Shown one piece after another: positions 14,630 through 29,134 of a stretch of DNA of 53,627 bases (positions are counted from its first letter, which is position 1; each line of letters begins with the position of its first letter). Where the stretch lies: IMG/VR virus record IMGVR_UViG_3300007072_000012, positions 1 to 53,627 of that record. One strand, written 5' to 3'. The DNA is from a virus. Both the position numbers and the translations under genes were made by a program. The notes under the pieces were generated by a model. It was given only the letters and a program-made list of their open reading frames with translations. It had not been told where the DNA came from and ran no database searches.

Positions 14630-15382
14630 TTAGTCCAAAAACGTTGATTCGTCATTAAACTTTCTAGCAAATAGGCATTCATGTGTTCCATACGCATCAG
14701 TATGTATATTATAATTTAATGCTTCTTGATATTCATCCGCAGTCAAGACTTCTGGACCATGTTTACCTTTGATATGGTTATAATACATTAAATGATGTTT
14801 TGTGTTTAATGAAAATTTTGCTAACATGGTTTGAAAGTAAAACTCAACAGGGAATATCGTATTTCGTTCTAGGAACAACCTTCGTCTATCATTTTTCCAT
14901 CTATCTAATACATGTCGTGCTGCATCCTTGGTAATTGCCCAATATGCATATCCACAATAAGGGTCTAATTCGTGGTAAACAATATTGAAATCTTTAGGAA
15001 TACGTACCGCTGGTTTATCACCTTCTGGCCAAGGTAACTTTTCACAGCTTATGAATTCATTATATTCATTTGTATTGAAAAAATCATTAATATAATCAGG
15101 TTTGACAATAGGATAGTCAGAACCACTTAAAAGTACAATATGTGTTACGTCTTGTGAAACACCATATTCTAGCAAATTAATAGTTGCTTTAATGGTGTTC
15201 CAATCTGCCCAACCAGTTCTTTGTGGATTATTAATTTGTTTGGATAGGCATAACTCAGAAAATTCAGTAGGATAAAATGTATCTAGATTGAGAAATACTT
15301 TTGCATATGGTTGGTCAATAGCCGTAATAAGCCTATGAAGATGCTTCGGATTATTATGAGCTAATATACAGTATGCTATCAT
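14630..15382 (-). CDS. GT14 (core-2/I-branching)-like glycosyltransferase
   Basis: A 250-aa protein starting MIAYCILAHNNPKHLHRLI, the typical opening of the Branch/GT14 family, followed by ADWNTIKATINLL and HIVLLSGSDYPI, the family's SG.D.P motif. These enzymes add N-acetylglucosamine or xylose branches. The start at 15382 overlaps the guaC-like stop as ATGA. Confidence 0.82.
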   Translation of the reverse strand: MIAYCILAHNNPKHLHRLITAIDQPYAKVFLNLDTFYPTEFSELCLSKQINNPQRTGWADWNTIKATINLLEYGVSQDVTHIVLLSGSDYPIVKPDYINDFFNTNEYNEFISCEKLPWPEGDKPAVRIPKDFNIVYHELDPYCGYAYWAITKDAARHVLDRWKNDRRRLFLERNTIFPVEFYFQTMLAKFSLNTKHHLMYYNHIKGKHGPEVLTADEYQEALNYNIHTDAYGTHECLFARKFNDESTFLD

Positions 15383-16341
15383 TGAACCACCCAATTTACC
15401 TTTTTGAATGCTTTTAAGTCTCTACCACCAGCATATGAAATGCTGCTACGAAGGCTTTGGTCAATTTCTTTATATTTATCAACTATAGAGCCACGATATG
15501 GAATTTCAATTTTGCAACCTTCTACGTATTCTTTAACACCCTTATTATGTTCACTAGCAGAACCAAAGTATTCTTTTACAATTCGTCCATCAGGATAGAT
15601 AATCTTTTTTCCCGGTGATTCTTCAAATCCAGCCACTAAATTTCCAGTCATAACCCAACTAGCACCAGCAACTAATGCCTTAGCAATATCTCCATTCTGA
15701 GTAATACCCCCATCAGATATAATGGGTTTCTTTGCAAAAGCAGCACATTCCAAAACAGCAGAGAATTGTGGTCTGGAAAATCCTGTTTGAAGTTTGGTAA
15801 TGCAAACTTTTCCACTTCCTATTCCAACCTTAGTCGCATCTGCTCCCCAAGACTCTAATGCGTGTACACCGTTCCCTGTGCATACATTGCCAGCAATAAC
15901 AAAAGTGTCAGGAAGATTTTCCTTAATAAGAGCAATCATCTTCTTCATTTTGTCACAATGACCATGAGCAATGTCAATTGTAATATAATGAATTTTTATT
16001 TTTAGTTTTTTTAATTTTTTAATAACCTCAATACTGTCTTGGTTGACGCCAACAGAAATTGAAACTAGGCCAATTTTTTGCATCTTTTTTGCAAAGTCAA
16101 TAATATCAACACCAAATCTATGCATAACATAGAAGTAACCATTTTGAGTTAGCCATTTTGCTAAATTAAAGTCTATAATAGTTTTCATATTAGCAGGAAT
16201 GATAGGAAGTTTAAACTTCCAATTTCCTATAGTTTGCCACGTACTTACTTGTTCTCGTGAGTCAACAAGTGCTTCATTTGGTAATAATAGAATATCGTTG
16301 TAATGATATTCTTTATGTTTAGACATCAAATGCTCGTTCAT
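15379..16341 (-). CDS. guaC: GMP reductase / IMP dehydrogenase family enzyme
   Basis: A 320-aa (beta/alpha)8 barrel protein. The sequence runs from YNDILLLPNEALVDSREQVST through IPANMKTI, TIDIAHGHCDKM, DTFVIAGNVCTGNGVHAL, GADATKVGIGSGKVCITKLQTGFSRPQ (active-site loop with the catalytic Cys) and IISDGGITQNGDIAKALVAGASWVM. There is no CBS insert and the length suits GMP reductase, which turns GMP into IMP with NADPH. This can rebalance purines in the infected cell. The start overlaps the upstream stop (ATGA). Confidence 0.88.
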   Translation of the reverse strand: MNEHLMSKHKEYHYNDILLLPNEALVDSREQVSTWQTIGNWKFKLPIIPANMKTIIDFNLAKWLTQNGYFYVMHRFGVDIIDFAKKMQKIGLVSISVGVNQDSIEVIKKLKKLKIKIHYITIDIAHGHCDKMKKMIALIKENLPDTFVIAGNVCTGNGVHALESWGADATKVGIGSGKVCITKLQTGFSRPQFSAVLECAAFAKKPIISDGGITQNGDIAKALVAGASWVMTGNLVAGFEESPGKKIIYPDGRIVKEYFGSASEHNKGVKEYVEGCKIEIPYRGSIVDKYKEIDQSLRSSISYAGGRDLKAFKKVNWVVQ

Positions 16342-21751: not shown

Positions 21752-21808
21752 CTAGAAATTAACCAACGCATATTCTGCACCATGTGAAGTGTCAAATTCA
21801 GCAATCAT
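21752..21808 (-). CDS. Possible 18-aa microprotein
   Basis: A tiny frame (MIAEFDTSHGAEYALVNF) whose ATG overlaps the previous gene's TGA as ATGA and whose Shine-Dalgarno (AAAGGAGAG) lies in that gene. The coupling is well formed but the frame is so short that chance is possible. Confidence 0.25.
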   Translation of the reverse strand: MIAEFDTSHGAEYALVNF

Positions 21809-22110
21809 AGTACACACTCTCCTTTTAATCTTCGTTCCTGTTTCTTTTTAAGCTTCTCTAAACTATCAAGTGGTAAGAATGTTACTATTTGTGCTCGTAA
21901 TTTGTCATAAACTACTAATACACTCTTACCCTTACATTCAAGTTTCCAAACTGTTGCCCTGTTAGAAGATTTGTAAATGAACTCACCCTTATTACTTTGT
22001 ATGTCATTTACTAATGCTTCCAAGTCAAGTCTGTTAACTATTAGTTTGTATCTTTGCCTTGCTCTCCTTTTTGCATGGTCACGTTCTGCCCTTCGCTTAG
22101 AATGGCTCAT
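21805..22110 (-). CDS. Conserved small phage protein (SKRRAERDHAKRRARQRY type)
   Basis: I start this at MSHSKRRAERDHAKRR (22110), with GGAG 6 nt upstream. The 101-aa product has a very basic helical N terminus, then beta strands including SNRATVWKLECKGKSVLVVYDKLRAQIVTFLPL, which recalls a ParE/RelE-like or DUF4258-like fold. I recall similar phage proteins, but no function is established; an RNA-binding or RNase-like role is inference. Confidence 0.6.
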   Translation of the reverse strand: MSHSKRRAERDHAKRRARQRYKLIVNRLDLEALVNDIQSNKGEFIYKSSNRATVWKLECKGKSVLVVYDKLRAQIVTFLPLDSLEKLKKKQERRLKGECVL

Positions 22111-22149
22111 GCTGTACTCCATATTGAATTGTCAACATACCCTATTCAA

Positions 22150-22178
22150 ATTATACAGGCAGATAGGGCATTTGTCAA
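22150..22178 (-). promoter_or_regulatory. Promoter for 22110 gene
   Basis: -35 TTGACA (22173-22178) and -10 TATAAT (22150-22155), spacer 17. It faces left, away from the plus-strand virion genes. Confidence 0.75.
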
Positions 22179-22273: not shown

Positions 22274-22582
22274 ATGGCTAATAATTTGCCTAGTGATGGA
22301 AATAATCGTGCAGTTCAGGCTTTAAAGCCTGTTGTTGGTTCATGGCAACGAATTGAGTTCAATACTATATCTGGTAATAAGTTTAACATTAGGGATGCTG
22401 AAATTGTACGGTTTCGTGCATCTCAGGAATGTTACATAGCATTCGGTGAAACTGTTTCCAGTGGTTGTATGGTTTTAGATGATAAAGCCGCTGAATACTT
22501 CCATGTTACAGGTTTTGACCGGATTGAAGTTCTAGGAGTGTCTACTGCTGGCTATCTTAGCAAATTGAAAATGGATTACTAA
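22274..22582 (+). CDS. Small virion-associated-like protein
   Basis: A 102-aa Ser/Gly/Asn-rich protein (MANNLPSDGNNRAVQALKP..., then RFRASQECYIAFGE, YFHVTGFDRIEVLG) with the beta-strand pattern of decoration or fibre-tip proteins. GGAG lies upstream of the ATG. It directly precedes the tailspike and is on the same strand, opposite to its other neighbours. No consensus TTGACA/TATAAT pair precedes it, so a late promoter is likely. Confidence 0.6.
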   Translation: MANNLPSDGNNRAVQALKPVVGSWQRIEFNTISGNKFNIRDAEIVRFRASQECYIAFGETVSSGCMVLDDKAAEYFHVTGFDRIEVLGVSTAGYLSKLKMDY

Positions 22583-22604: not shown

Positions 22605-24899
22605 ATGCTAGGTTCTCCCGGCAGGTTAACAAGAGTTGGAAATGTTTCATTAAATGCTATTAAAAAAATTTTAAATAAGATTGGATTAGGATATTTAGCA
22701 AATAATGTTGTTTATATGCTTTACCCAAATGATCCTTCAAGGTCTGAAGGTAATAGGCATTATCTTTACACGCCGACCGGCGGCTGGGCGCTTTCTGGGA
22801 CCATGACAGGCACGATGGACGCCTACGGGGATGTGACGGGCGGCACGTTTGCTATGTCTGTTCCTGCTGGCACGGTAGATATGGTTTCGTACTGGGGCAC
22901 TCCGCTCAAACACACGAAATTCCCGTTCCTGTCCATCGGATTCAACCGCTCGCTGACCGCTGGAGAGATTGCATCCTTCACGTCTGCGCTGTCAACTTAC
23001 GCTACGGCTGCTGGCGTTACGCCAGCCACTGCAAGCGTTACGTTCAAGTACGGATATTCGACCAAGTACCCAACAATCACAGGGACAACCTACTACGTCG
23101 ATCCAGTGGACGGGAACGATGCGAACGCCGGGACTGCTCCGGGTGCTGGCAATGCGTGGAAGACAGTAGCCAAGGTAAACGGATTCGCATTCAACGCTGG
23201 CGACGGTGTTCTATTTAAGGGGGGTAACACATACACGACCGCGCTGAAGCCAACTGCGTCAGGCACGTCTACTGCTCCGATAGTGTTTGGCGCATACGGA
23301 GTCGCAGGCTCAACGCCTCCGATTATCAACGCTGCAAGCCCAATACAATGCAACGGGAAAAGCGGCCTGATGTTTAGAGGGTTGGTTCTTAGAGGTTCTG
23401 GGGCGCAAGTAACGGCGCAGTCAAACGAGAGTTATATCTGGCTCCTGTCGTGCATCTTCGAGTCTGCCGGAACATTTGGATTCTACGGATCTGCTAATGC
23501 AGCCGTAGTTATTGACGGGTGCGTGTTCTCGCGTCCTGCTCGATACCCAATATATTGCTCTGGGGCGTCAACAATCACCGCAAGAAATTGCGTAATCTTG
23601 CCATGTGTCACATCATCGGATGAAGGTCCATACAGTATAGGCACTGGCGGTTCGCTGGATATAGATTACAGCATAGTGAATACGCTGGTCACGCCATCGA
23701 CAACAAGAGTAACGTATGGGTCGAACAATATCACAAGGGGCACACCTGGATTCACGTCATATCCTCCGACACCCGCCGTTACTCCGAGAATCACGTTTAC
23801 GGTCGATGATACAGCAAATCTGGCAGACTTCAGCGCGTTCTGTTCTGGCGTCCTTGACCCGCTTGGATTGAAGGCCACGATTTTTGTATCACCTGCTGGT
23901 ATGTCCGCTGGAGATCAGGCGACATGCGCAACCTTGGCGGCTGCGGGTCACGAAATAGCGAATCACACGCTTAACCACGAAGACCTTTCCGCGACAAATG
24001 CCTTCACGGTTACTTCGACCAACACGAACCCTACGGTGGACGTTGACGTTGCAACCACAACCATCGCATTCTCGTGTGATGAAGTCGGAAACCGCGTCAC
24101 GTTCGATTGGTCTGGCGGCAAGACACTCACTGACCTCAAAGCGGCAGTGGCGGGAAAAGGCTGGACGCTGACTAACTCGGTGGAGAATGGGAAAACGAGA
24201 CAGAATGGCTTGCTGATTGATTCGCTTGCTGATACGTCTGGAGCGCAAGCCGTACCATATACATGCGCTCTCGATATTTCCGCTACAAGTAAATTCTGGG
24301 ATCACGAAATCAACGACGCAACGACGCAGATTGCCGCGATAACTGGAGTTACTCCGACGACGATGGCTTACCCATATGGCTTCAGTACAGCAAATTTAAG
24401 AACTTGGCTGGCGGCGCACACATCGCTGCTCGCCGCAAGAACGGTCGGAGGCGCAGTTCCGTCGCTCGCCTCGGTCCCCCAGTGGTTGATGATTCAGAGG
24501 CCATATCTTTACACCGCGTCATCCACAGAGGCGGATGTTCGGAAAATCGCAAGGGCGTTTCTTGCATTCGGAGCGTCTTGTCCGTCATATAATATTTTCT
24601 ACGATCACGCCATGTCTTCGGACTTGAGGCAGCGTCACGCATGGTTCATCAATGAGTTTGTAACACTTGGCGGTGGAACACTGATGACGTTCGGCGCATT
24701 GGCCGCATGGATTAATGCGGACCATACGCTATCAAGCGGAACATGGACTAAGACGTATGACGTTACCGGAGCAGATTACACGCCATCATCTGGATCTGCG
24801 ATGCTGACCGTAGGGAATCCATCCGCACCACACATCACGGTGGATGCGCTTGGCACATCCGCGCCAGTGTTTAGCAGCATTGGCGCAGTCCAGAAGTGA
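22605..24899 (+). CDS. Tailspike: beta-helix plus polysaccharide deacetylase (NodB) domain
   Basis: A 764-aa virion protein likely used to bind and modify host surface glycan. Residues 1-50 are AT-rich and probably anchor the spike to the particle. From about residue 165 (TYYVDPVDGNDANAGT...AWKTVAKVN) to 370 the sequence looks like a right-handed beta-helix. From about 395 a NodB domain shows ITFTVDD (metal Asp pair), GHEIANHTLNHEDL (HTxxH) and MAYPYGFS. NodB enzymes deacetylate N-acetyl sugars. The body from about 22755 is sharply richer in G+C than the start and all neighbours, indicating recent acquisition. RBS GAGG, 8 nt from ATG. Confidence 0.88.
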   Translation: MLGSPGRLTRVGNVSLNAIKKILNKIGLGYLANNVVYMLYPNDPSRSEGNRHYLYTPTGGWALSGTMTGTMDAYGDVTGGTFAMSVPAGTVDMVSYWGTPLKHTKFPFLSIGFNRSLTAGEIASFTSALSTYATAAGVTPATASVTFKYGYSTKYPTITGTTYYVDPVDGNDANAGTAPGAGNAWKTVAKVNGFAFNAGDGVLFKGGNTYTTALKPTASGTSTAPIVFGAYGVAGSTPPIINAASPIQCNGKSGLMFRGLVLRGSGAQVTAQSNESYIWLLSCIFESAGTFGFYGSANAAVVIDGCVFSRPARYPIYCSGASTITARNCVILPCVTSSDEGPYSIGTGGSLDIDYSIVNTLVTPSTTRVTYGSNNITRGTPGFTSYPPTPAVTPRITFTVDDTANLADFSAFCSGVLDPLGLKATIFVSPAGMSAGDQATCATLAAAGHEIANHTLNHEDLSATNAFTVTSTNTNPTVDVDVATTTIAFSCDEVGNRVTFDWSGGKTLTDLKAAVAGKGWTLTNSVENGKTRQNGLLIDSLADTSGAQAVPYTCALDISATSKFWDHEINDATTQIAAITGVTPTTMAYPYGFSTANLRTWLAAHTSLLAARTVGGAVPSLASVPQWLMIQRPYLYTASSTEADVRKIARAFLAFGASCPSYNIFYDHAMSSDLRQRHAWFINEFVTLGGGTLMTFGALAAWINADHTLSSGTWTKTYDVTGADYTPSSGSAMLTVGNPSAPHITVDALGTSAPVFSSIGAVQK

Positions 24900-25002
24900 G
24901 TGAAAGGTAACCGGACTTACCTTGATATGCCAAGTGCCGCAGGATTGGCTAATGTAGCAACATTGACTGCTCGTGGTTGGGACATGCTAGTTTCTAGTTA
25001 GT
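24900..25002 (+). pseudogene. AT-rich C-terminal remnant of a displaced fibre gene
   Basis: After the TGA the same frame stays open to TAG at 25000-25002 and encodes NRTYLDMPSAAGLANVATL and then TARGWDMLVSS. This looks like the end of a different, repeat-type surface or fibre protein and has the AT-rich composition of the phage. It is either the leftover 3' end of the original gene or, if the TGA is read through, a C-terminal extension of the spike. Confidence 0.45.
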
Positions 25003-25243
25003 GTTCTACTTTCTTAATCCAAACATTTGTAGGAATTTGTACCACGAAAGTTTTGTATTTTAAGGGAATAATAATACCAGTAAAGTTTTTATCATAAACT
25101 GGTCTTCGTAAAATACATCTATCTGTAACAACATCAATAAAATTGAATCCTTTTCGTGTAACCTTTACAAACTTAACAATTCGATGATTATAAGTAAACA
25201 ACTCACCTAATGTAGCTTTTAAACTATAGAAGTTTGGAATCAT
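24998..25243 (-). CDS. Hypothetical protein, 81 aa
   Basis: A small beta-rich protein (RIVKFVKVTRKGFNFIDVVTDRCILRR) possibly with an SH3-like barrel. It overlaps the Tat-like gene by 4 nt and is last in this minus-strand run, converging on the tailspike. Function unknown. Confidence 0.55.
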   Translation of the reverse strand: MIPNFYSLKATLGELFTYNHRIVKFVKVTRKGFNFIDVVTDRCILRRPVYDKNFTGIIIPLKYKTFVVQIPTNVWIKKVEH

Positions 25244-25494
25244 ACACTATAGTTTCTCCACTTTTTTGTGTTGTAAGTCCAATTCTCACCAAGAGGAATG
25301 ACATGACTCCAAACAATAGTTTGATTTGGGTCAAGGTATGTATTATTTAACAACTCTTGATATTCTCTAATCTCTTCTGGTGTTGCTGGTTTTGCTTTTC
25401 CTATCTTAGCTACTTTCTTTGGTTCAGGCTCAATGCCAAATATTCTAGCAGCAGTTGTGCCTGTTACTAATGATAGAAACTTTCGTCTATCCAT
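25240..25494 (-). CDS. Small protein with twin-arginine-like signal
   Basis: I start this at MDRRKFLSLVTGTTAARIFG (25494). RRKFL followed by a short weakly hydrophobic stretch is a twin-arginine (Tat) pattern, and the following EPEPKKVAK is mature-like. The 84-aa product then has PATPEEIREYQELLNNTYLDP, helical and hydrophilic. Export of a phage protein by Tat would be unusual; the hydrophobic core is short, so the motif could be chance. Confidence 0.5.
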   Translation of the reverse strand: MDRRKFLSLVTGTTAARIFGIEPEPKKVAKIGKAKPATPEEIREYQELLNNTYLDPNQTIVWSHVIPLGENWTYNTKKWRNYSV

Positions 25495-26565: not shown

Positions 26566-26958
26566 TTAGTAGTAGCTTTTATACATTTTGTAATTTTTAA
26601 TATCTACACGTTTTGTAATTTTAACTGCATCACATCCAATAGTGCCAGTGGGAGGGATTCGATTGAAACAAGGATATTTCCAAAAATCAATAAGGTTATA
26701 ATGGTTCCAAGTCATAATAGGATTATACTTTGGGTTTTTAACTTCACATTCATATACCCTAGCATAACTACTTTTTCTAACCATCGGCCAAAATTTAAAC
26801 AAAGCCTCTAAAGAACTAAACACATATAAACAGGAATTTTTAATTTTGGGTTTTGTCCATTTACCTGTTCGGTATCGAACAACACTAGGTCGGCAGTTAT
26901 TAGTTAAATGTGAATAAAGCTTCTTGTTCTTTGCAGTCAACAGTTTGTAATAAGTCAT
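26566..26958 (-). CDS. YECEV-family paralogue, full-length
   Basis: The longest intact member (130 aa) of a local family: TYYKLL.AKNKKLYS at the start, VRYRTGKWTKPKIKNSCLYVFSSLEA in the middle, VYECEVKNP near residue 85 and AVKITKRV near the end. Other copies lie at 27699-28154, 28209-28532, 28747-28983 and 28964-29134. Family function unknown; no catalytic motif is visible. Confidence 0.6.
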   Translation of the reverse strand: MTYYKLLTAKNKKLYSHLTNNCRPSVVRYRTGKWTKPKIKNSCLYVFSSLEALFKFWPMVRKSSYARVYECEVKNPKYNPIMTWNHYNLIDFWKYPCFNRIPPTGTIGCDAVKITKRVDIKNYKMYKSYY

Positions 26959-26979
26959 TTCATCCCTCCTTTAGTTTCT

Positions 26980-27008
26980 ATTATACTGTTAGGTGGGTAG
27001 AATGTCAA
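26980..27008 (-). promoter_or_regulatory. Promoter for 26958-24998 gene set
   Basis: -35 TTGACA (27003-27008) and -10 TATAAT (26980-26985), spacer 17. The -35 overlaps the final codons of the preceding gene. Confidence 0.75.
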
Positions 27009-27232
27009 GACCTTTTCTTCTTTTTTGTTGGGTCTTTTCTAAAGCTGTATTTGTTAAATCCTTTTGCTTCAGCCATAGTAACATCACTTATTTTTGGAAT
27101 TGGTTTAATAGGTACAGCTAAATTATTCATAAACATGGTAATTTCTTGATATGCTTTTATCGGATTAAAAATTTTAGCAAAATCAAGTTCTTTAAGTCGT
27201 GAATTGTAACAAATTGTATGTTGTTGTGACAT
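27005..27232 (-). CDS. C-terminal part of a gene interrupted by in-frame TAG
   Basis: The stretch from MSQQHTICYN (27232) to 27005 has KELDFAKIFNPIKAYQEITMFMNNLA and AEAKGFNKYSFRKDP. In the same frame it is open upstream to TAG at 27317-27319, giving TLHVGEYEKQYIKVFEEKRCPIF before the Met. From memory, many phages carry one protein with both this end and the start found at 27317-27697, so this is probably its C-terminal half. Confidence 0.6.
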   Translation of the reverse strand: MSQQHTICYNSRLKELDFAKIFNPIKAYQEITMFMNNLAVPIKPIPKISDVTMAEAKGFNKYSFRKDPTKKKKRS

Positions 27233-27316
27233 ACTATAATTTATTACAAAAATAGGACAACGTTTTTCTTCAAAAACTTTAATATACTGTTTTTCATATT
27301 CACCAACATGTAAGGT

Positions 27317-27697
27317 CTACTCTTTAAAGAATTTTCCAAAATAATCCCTATTTAAAATTCGTATTTTGTGGCTATACTTTGGTGATTCAAAATACTGGTC
27401 AATAACTTCCTTCTTGTAATATGTTTGAATAAAATTATCAATTTGTTTTAAATTATAACAATATGAAATGTTAAAGTGTGGAAGTGGAGCATTTAGTTTA
27501 AGTAATGGATATAATTTTCCACAAAAACCAACAACTGACAATTCAAATGTTGGGTCATAGTTTCCCCAACCATATAAGGTTGGAAAGTTCCAACAATGTT
27601 CTTCATGTATCTCTTTACGAAGGTAAAGAGTTTGTTTGTCTAGGTCAAGTTTTTGACCACAATCGTAATAGTCATGGAAATCACTGATAATTCTCAT
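27317..27697 (-). CDS. N-terminal part of a conserved phage protein, ended by TAG
   Basis: The product starts MRIISDFHDYYDCGQ (ATG 27697, 1 nt after the previous TAA) and runs 126 aa through FCGKLYPLLKL to NRDYFGKFFKE, then TAG. The opening and FCGKLYP are hallmarks of a recurrent phage hypothetical of about 230 aa. The continuation follows in the same frame beyond the stop (to 27005). Either a nonsense mutation, readthrough or a sequence error splits the gene. Confidence 0.65.
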   Translation of the reverse strand: MRIISDFHDYYDCGQKLDLDKQTLYLRKEIHEEHCWNFPTLYGWGNYDPTFELSVVGFCGKLYPLLKLNAPLPHFNISYCYNLKQIDNFIQTYYKKEVIDQYFESPKYSHKIRILNRDYFGKFFKE

Positions 27698-27698
27698 A

Positions 27699-28154
27699 TT
27701 AATCCCGCCCAACCTCTTCCCAATATGATTTGCAGTTAAACTTATTATGCACACGCACTTTTCGTGTAATCTTAAGAGTGGAACATATTAAAGTTTCTTT
27801 TGGTGCACACTGGTACGGCATATTTGGTAGACAATGTTTATTTTTTCGTTGTTTCCAAAAAGTTGCTAAATCCTCTCTCTTACACATCATAATATCAGGA
27901 AATTTTTTAATACCGGCGACATCTTTTGCCTCACACTTCCAAATTTCATCACCTAATTCTACTTTTTGGGCGTCCTTTAACGTTTTAAAAATAAACAGCT
28001 TGCTATGTTTTATCTCAGGAGTGGTTCAAATATTATAGTTGTAACCAATGCACACATCATCACAAGCACGGCACAATGAAATCTTTTTAGGTAACCATAA
28101 CTGTAATGCTTTAGTATAATAATTATGACAAATTATTTTATAATAAGTTTTCAT
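27699..28154 (-). pseudogene. YECEV-family paralogue with in-frame TGA
   Basis: The frame starts at ATG 28154 (AGGAGA upstream), gives MKTYYKIICHNYYTKALQ and reaches TGA at 28026-28028 after 42 codons. It then continues without change of frame for another 108 codons. Aligned with the copy at 26566-26958, the TGA falls exactly on the conserved Trp of GKWTKPKIK (here NI-stop-TTPEIK), so a TGG to TGA change explains it. Downstream residues include KITRKVRV like its relatives. It could be dead, read through, or start again at 27890. Confidence 0.65.
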
Positions 28155-28185
28155 TTATATCTCCTATTAGTTAATTTCCATTTTA

Positions 28186-28212
28186 ATTATCCCATGATAA
28201 GAACTATGTCAA
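28186..28212 (-). promoter_or_regulatory. Weaker promoter for 28154 gene
   Basis: -35 TTGACA (28207-28212) with a GATAAT-like -10 (28186-28191) and a spacer of only 15, less ideal than neighbouring promoters. Confidence 0.45.
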
Positions 28213-28532
28213 GAACTTTGTATTCTTTTAATCAATTTAACTTTTTTAACATAATATTCTTCCGTTTTAAGAAGTATAAGCTTTCCGATAATTCCTGAAA
28301 CTTTACATTCATAAATAGCACCCGTTTTCCTCTGACAGGCTTCAATATCTGTACGCAAAATACTTTTGGCCATGCAAAGACTAGTTGTTACAAATAGACG
28401 TGGGTGCTTTTTATCTCTAGATTTAACCCAACTCCCAATCATATAACGAACAGGCTTAAAATGAAACATATGAGCAAAGCTAGAATATAGCTTTTTGTTT
28501 TTACGAAGCACTACTTTGTAATAAGTTTTCAT
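28209..28532 (-). CDS. YECEV-family paralogue
   Basis: I start this at MKTYYKVVLRKNKKLYS (28532) with AAAGGGA upstream. The 107-aa product keeps the family order: VRYMIGSWVKSRDKKHPRLFVTTSLCMAKSIL, IYECKVSG and KVKLIKRI. It is intact but shorter in the middle than the 26566-26958 copy. Role unknown. Confidence 0.6.
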   Translation of the reverse strand: MKTYYKVVLRKNKKLYSSFAHMFHFKPVRYMIGSWVKSRDKKHPRLFVTTSLCMAKSILRTDIEACQRKTGAIYECKVSGIIGKLILLKTEEYYVKKVKLIKRIQSS

Positions 28533-28544
28533 TATCAATTCCCT

Positions 28545-28754
28545 TTAATTTTTATTGTTTTTAATTCGCCACAGACATTGCATAATATCTGTTACATAAC
28601 AATTATGACCGTATGTACAATTTTTGCAAAGTTTTGCACAGAGTTTTTCTGAAATATTAGAAATACGAGTTTCTAATATTTCTTTTTGGGCTTGTAATTT
28701 TTCCATTTTTGACGCAAGCTCAATGACTGACTTTTTTGTTTTTTTATCAAACAT
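28545..28754 (-). CDS. Small coiled-coil plus Cys-cluster protein
   Basis: I start this at MFDKKTKKSVIELASKM (28754). The 69-aa product has a heptad helix (MEKLQAQKEILETRISNISEKL) then CAKLCKNCTYGHNC...MQC, a cluster that could hold zinc. It overlaps the preceding gene by 8 nt. Confidence 0.5.
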   Translation of the reverse strand: MFDKKTKKSVIELASKMEKLQAQKEILETRISNISEKLCAKLCKNCTYGHNCYVTDIMQCLWRIKNNKN

Positions 28755-28983
28755 ATATAACTCTTTTAGTAAGTTTAACTTTGTCAACTAAAACTGTTGG
28801 TGCGCCATCAGAATCTTTATCTTTTACAGGATTTTCTACTTCACATTCATAGATAGAACCATTATTATCACAATCATATTTTAATATACTTGCTGCATAA
28901 TTTAAATTTGTTGTTACAAATAGTTGTGGATTGGCTAAGTCTCTAGAAGCTACCCACTTATTTTTAATATTTTGCTTGTTCAA
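28747..28983 (-). CDS. YECEV-family paralogue lacking its N terminus
   Basis: A 78-aa frame beginning at TTG (28983) without a clear Shine-Dalgarno. NKWVASRDLANPQLFVTTNLNYAASIL, IYECEVENP and KVKLTKRV match the middle and end of the family, but the YYK...KNKKLYS start is missing. That start is present in the overlapping frame at 28964-29134, so the pair may be the product of a fusion or deletion between two copies. Confidence 0.45.
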   Translation of the reverse strand: MNKQNIKNKWVASRDLANPQLFVTTNLNYAASILKYDCDNNGSIYECEVENPVKDKDSDGAPTVLVDKVKLTKRVIYV

Positions 28984-29134
28984 TGGTTGGACAAATCCAA
29001 AGAAGTGTATCTTTAACTTTAGGTTTCATCCACTTATTTTTTGTGTAACGAATAGATATATCTGGTCTAAAAATGAATGACCATAATTGCTTATTTCGTG
29101 AACTCAAAACTTTGTATCCATAATTAATTTCCAT
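28964..29134 (-). CDS. YECEV-family paralogue lacking its C terminus
   Basis: A 56-aa frame, ATG 29134 to TAA 28964: MEINYGYKVLSSRNKQLWS, then SIRYTKNKWMKPKVKDTLLWI. This is the family's N-terminal half; the YECEV and KLTKRV part is missing. It overlaps the start of the 28747-28983 frame by 20 nt in another frame. Confidence 0.45.
   Translation of the reverse strand: MEINYGYKVLSSRNKQLWSFIFRPDISIRYTKNKWMKPKVKDTLLWICPTIEQAKY

Follow-up and report, generated by a model that had tools for sequence, protein, structure and literature searches.

A chimeric phage gene of probable origin by module acquisition, and its likely product, a surface-glycan deacetylase on the virion

How did a large uncultivated phage of 35% GC come to carry a gene whose greater part is GC-rich and codes for a polysaccharide deacetylase domain, and what would the product of such a gene do? 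In this study, we have explored this question in the ORF at positions 22605-24899 (plus strand, 764 codons, TGA stop at 24897-24899) of a window, meaning the whole stretch of DNA analysed, of 53,627 bases and 35.2% GC, which matches bases 134,806-188,432 of the 194,473-base contig IMGVR_UViG_3300022554_000002. Our investigations demonstrate that the chimeric gene is real, and well supported by composition, codon use and homology at the joints. With moderate confidence, we read it as a gene made by module acquisition whose product is a surface-glycan deacetylase, probably borne on the virion. The function of the product as a virion-borne glycan deacetylase is likely, and the swap may have changed host recognition.

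The composition of this ORF sets it apart from the rest of the phage. Compared with the 128 other ORFs of at least 150 amino acids in the 194 kb contig (35% GC), its GC content of 52.1% is 4.2 sd above the mean and its GC3 of 52.4% is 3.8 sd above; it is the top composition outlier of the contig, which has no GC island longer than this stretch. GC content is 30.5% at 22605-22755, 53.6% at 22755-24899, 46.6% at 24900-25002 and 29.5% at 25003-25300. Synonymous codons place the maximal foreign segment at 22767-24902, with 2-nat intervals of 22752-22770 for the left end and 24890-24947 for the right end, and the log-likelihood ratios (body versus phage codon usage) are -22.7 for the anchor, +291 for the body and -10.2 for the tail. 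A break in ancestry between anchor and body is therefore present as change points in both codons and GC, and the original prediction of an AT-rich anchor reaching to about 22755, followed by a GC-rich body at 22755-24899, is borne out by these values, with breaks at both ends of the body. On this basis, the resident 5' part, a putative virion-anchor segment of about 31% GC with phage-like codons, comprises residues 1-54 (22605-22766), and the foreign GC-rich body, which ends in a TGA stop of its own, extends from 22767 to 24899.

Downstream of the TGA (24897-24899), the same frame stays open for 33 codons (24900-25001), reading VKGNRTYLDMPSAAGLANVATLTARGWDMLVSS, and closes at a TAG (24999-25001). 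An open frame of 33 codons is weak evidence when taken alone, and we regard this one as a resident remnant because its codon use is phage-like: its synonymous codon score of -10.2 compares with a median of -11.1 for random 33-codon pieces of the phage, and none of the sampled 33-codon pieces of the body scored as low. It is also the sole coding-like frame of the six (+4.7 with no stop, the other five ranging from -4.7 to -13.3), and its TAG overlaps the stop of a convergent minus-strand gene (24998-25243), a packing expected of a native gene end. The remnant had been predicted as AT-rich coding sequence at 24900-25002. Its frame and its phage-like coding character hold, and so does its AT-richness as to codon use (GC3 of 33%), but not as to raw GC, which is intermediate at 46.6%; its end lies at 25001. 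TGA is an ordinary stop in this phage (20 of 129 ORFs), and an alternative genetic code was rejected.

A feature new in this analysis is a peptide motif shared by both joints. The left copy, EGNRHYLYTPT (residues 48-58, 22746-22778), and the right copy, KGNRTYLDMPS, at the start of the remnant (24903-24935), are both in frame on the plus strand and align with a BLOSUM score of 31, a value above that of 99.9% of the 15-residue pieces drawn at random from the phage (p=0.0004). In the DNA, 20 of 28 bases match, with p=0.002 in a 70-base test and 0.01-0.02 in a wider test. Short homology is thus present at both joints, as in the module exchange of receptor-binding proteins (RBPs). Because the two copies have diverged at many positions, several of the differences being synonymous, the motif looks like shared protein ancestry and not like the recent duplication of a target site. 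It suggests that a short homologous junction was used for recombination, and may be compatible both with the replacement of an older body and with the simple insertion of a module. Displaced C-terminal "orphan" modules have been described for Rhs and CdiA proteins. By analogy, the motif might be a cassette site, and the displaced end, which has its own GNRxYLxxP copy, might be a silent module able to recombine back behind the anchor. We consider this very unlikely; if true, it would mean that a large phage can switch its receptor module reversibly.

The first part of the body points to a right-handed beta-helix (residues 150-394, 23052-23786). Residues 152-242 match the lacto-N-biosidase LnbX (GH136; PDB 5gqc) with an E-value of 1.5e-10, and Pfam Beta_helix (PF13229) reaches 24.2 bits, just under its cut-off; from these two matches, we take the first half of the body to have this fold. 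The two proteins are alike at the start of the beta-helix and, as the match is limited to about 90 residues, the likeness is to the start of the fold only. The beta-helix supplies the glycan-binding or depolymerase-type body that characterises tailspikes.

From residue 395 onward, the protein matches Polysacc_deac_1 (PF01522) with an E-value of 4.5e-13 and 49.7 bits, against a curated cut-off of 23.1, and a profile made from the domain and three relatives reaches 40 PDB sequences, mostly of the NodB/CE4 type (PdaC, PdaA and PgdA, for example), in agreement with the polysaccharide deacetylase originally predicted. By Pfam, profile and alignment, the first half of the NodB/CE4 domain (23787-24026) contains motif 1, FTVDD (D401, D402), and motif 2, NHTLNH (H454, H458). 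The base and metal-ligand residues are thus kept, which makes an active deacetylase plausible. The alignment places an insertion of about 90 residues, with no family assigned, between motifs 2 and 3 (24027-24284); a likeness of this insert to a PhiKZ major capsid protein was dropped (E 0.011, under the curated cut-off). The second half of the domain (24285-24752) contains the motif-3-like AYPYG (588-592), without the canonical Arg of RxPxG, and a candidate motif-5 His in FYDH (H668), which by eye resembles the FYTH/FYSH of the NodB proteins of L021 and L022, the aligner having placed no match there. AlphaFold without relatives gave no usable model of the 764-aa protein (pLDDT of 37).

The phage encodes a ribonucleotide reductase, an IMP dehydrogenase-like protein, a dNMP kinase and an RNA ligase, and as the identity of its terminase to those of known phages does not exceed about 27%, it has no close named relative. 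The IMP dehydrogenase/GMP reductase-like protein (15379-16341, minus strand) has 54% identity to gp120 of Bacillus phage G, and an IS605 OrfB/TnpB-type transposase gene lies within the phage at 11948-13120 (minus strand). The tail-type and structural genes are on the minus strand and reach to about window position 1,570. Nearly all genes around our ORF, many of them small, are also on the minus strand, and several adjoining small proteins at 26566-29134 resemble divergent paralogues by eye, with the common patterns YK...NKKLYS...VRY..GKW.KPK and YECEV. Together with the gene directly upstream, in the same orientation, the ORF forms an isolated plus-strand pair, about 21 kb away from the tail/adsorption cluster. 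Tailspike genes usually, although not strictly, lie inside such a cluster, and this gap counts against a simple tailspike assignment. The upstream gene (22274-22582, plus strand) has resident codon usage (LLR -35.5) and encodes a 102-aa protein, possibly a small all-beta structural protein: its model is all-beta with low confidence (pLDDT 52), and a fold search with this weak model gave nothing at E 0.001. A perfect sigma-70 consensus promoter (TTGACA-17-TATAAT, 12/12) at 22150-22178 on the minus strand precedes the divergent minus-strand gene 21805-22122. Just outside the window, at contig positions 188,700-189,500, a second, smaller GC-rich stretch (about 50%) spans a gene for a helix-turn-helix-like protein and a non-coding tRNA-like sequence.

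Searches for relatives and for a donor returned mostly the phage itself. Among phages, the whole 764-aa protein has no relatives at 1e-3 and no PHROG match, the anchor, the remnant and the two flanks joined into a 79-aa protein gave no matches or chance-level ones, and the 102-aa protein had chance-level matches at best. Residues 1-60 of the anchor have no relatives in phages or viral contigs, and the same anchor on different bodies was not seen there. Viral contigs scanned with the whole protein, the anchor, the body halves, the 102-aa protein and the dNMP kinase yielded the same phage and generic NodB proteins only, the 102-aa protein finding just the phage; genome contigs yielded one generic NodB protein only, and no donor of the body was found among phages, viral contigs or genome contigs. 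A degenerate pattern of the remnant had 18 matches which, apart from the phage itself, showed no resemblance beyond the pattern. The remnant had been expected on a longer fibre gene in related phages, and these searches found no relatives of anchor or remnant. The TerL search gave the same phage only; one of these matches is a fragment from a different metagenome, which stops short of covering the site, and a syntenic comparison was therefore impossible. As the searches of phages, viral contigs and genome contigs gave no relatives of the anchor, the remnant, the upstream protein or the complete body, it is by inference that we speak of a donor, of an older body (if there was one), of a place on the virion and of a change in host range.

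These data could be explained without the loss of any older body. The ancestor would then have been a gene of about 80 codons, made of the anchor and the present tail, and the module would have entered at the GNRxYLxxP site with nothing removed. This fits with the recurrence of the motif at the very start of the tail and with the continuous short ORF that results when anchor and tail are joined there. However, the motif copies differ (20/28 nt), which a newly duplicated target would not, a gene for just 80 residues including a putative anchor would be unusual, and the joined 79-aa protein is without relatives in phages; we hold such an insertion to be possible but unlikely. It could also be that the gene is of foreign derivation and that its product is not a spike but an intracellular or released moron enzyme, which would modify host surface glycans or a defence glycan. 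The distance from the tail genes, the absence of a PHROG match and the unrecognised N terminus all speak for this. Yet a signal peptide is not evident on inspection, a beta-helix followed by a glycan esterase is a typical spike layout, and annotated minor tail proteins carry NodB domains, and we thus find a moron enzyme rather doubtful.

Two further explanations also have to be weighed, and both appear extremely improbable to us. The sharpness of the composition breaks is what would be expected if a bacterial or other phage contig had been joined to this phage during assembly, but the left break lies within one continuous reading frame, the frame goes on with phage-type codons past the stop, and both flanks run on into the same phage. 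Moreover, both joints and the region of the chimeric gene are identical in the second assembly, IMGVR_UViG_3300022554_000002, which differs from the window by a single-base indel within a run of T and by five bases near the end, although the two assemblies may share reads. Alternatively, the TGA could be read through, the tail being expressed as a C-terminal extension of the chimera, as the open frame and its phage-like codons would allow; against this, TGA is a normal stop of this genome, and the codon break falls at the stop, for which the simplest account is that it arrived with the foreign module.

We therefore favour module acquisition by a resident phage gene. That part of the original prediction in which a foreign module of higher GC was fused, with the frame kept, to a resident 5' end, leaving resident-type coding sequence behind a new stop, agrees with GC, codons and domains and gains weight from the peptide common to both joints; its further parts, that a receptor-binding body was replaced, that the protein is a tailspike of the virion and that the host range changed, may hold as well. 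A possible sequence of events would begin with recombination at or beside the short sequence coding for GNRxYLxxP, by which the resident gene gained a foreign 2.1 kb segment; this segment codes for a beta-helix followed by a NodB-type (CE4) deacetylase and carries a stop codon of its own. The resident start and the first 54 or so codons would have been kept, so that the new body would today be expressed from them and probably be anchored by them, and the 33 old C-terminal codons would have been left untranslated behind the new stop. On the virion, the product would be a spike-like protein whose beta-helix may bind a host glycan and whose NodB domain may strip capsule, LPS, exopolysaccharide or peptidoglycan of N- (or O-) acetyl groups. 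Such deacetylation could aid adsorption or entry, and the swap could have altered the hosts recognised.

There are parallels with known systems. When RBP (tailspike) modules are exchanged in E. coli phages, the swapped domain is flanked on both sides by conserved motifs (Pas et al., 2023; PMC10408124). There, as in the acquisition that we propose, the resident anchor is kept, the receptor-binding body is exchanged and short conserved sequences flank it. Unlike that study, ours reads a single genome by its composition, without an allele series, and here the motif recurs in the coding frame and an end of the old gene is still present. Proteins annotated as minor tail proteins contain NodB domains in the Gordonia phages OneDirection (gp24), Lton and Eyre, and such domains are further present in Arthrobacter phage Gorpy gp36, a Pseudomonas phage, a TM7 phage and Bacillus phage G gp673. 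The Gordonia proteins, as well as those of L021 and L022, share PF01522 with ours and carry it in a protein annotated as a tail protein or in tail-like surroundings. The proteins of L021 and L022, in which the motif AGHEIANH is present, are distant relatives (only about 32-34% identity over the matched stretch) and differ in having neither a beta-helix match nor the insert of about 90 residues in the catalytic domain. The first 88 or so residues of the L021 protein are shared with proteins of Arthrobacter phages whose annotations differ, among them glycoside hydrolase, esterase, hydrolase and tail fibre; one N terminus under different C-terminal annotations illustrates the design of an anchor with an exchangeable body. 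Like our phage, Bacillus phage G is large, and its gp673 is a multidomain protein with a glycosidase (GH113) followed by NodB; unlike ours, it has this other glycan-active partner domain and no beta-helix match. The tailspike gp41 of Aristophanes deacetylates the capsule without cleaving it, by O-deacetylation with an SGNH fold (PMC8471582). It is a deacetylating spike, as our product may be, of the SGNH type whereas ours is NodB, and in the literature considered here, the spike deacetylases shown by experiment are SGNH esterases (PMC8471582; PMC13123978).

In conclusion, the event described here is a new, well-marked case of the known exchange of receptor modules in phages. As a rule, such exchange is recognised only when many relatives are compared. 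In the present case, a single genome presents the donor-type body, the resident start, the resident end and the joint motif together, in a large phage without close relatives. Its body is a candidate spike-type deacetylase of the NodB family, as compared to the SGNH esterases that are described experimentally in the literature considered here (PMC8471582; PMC13123978).
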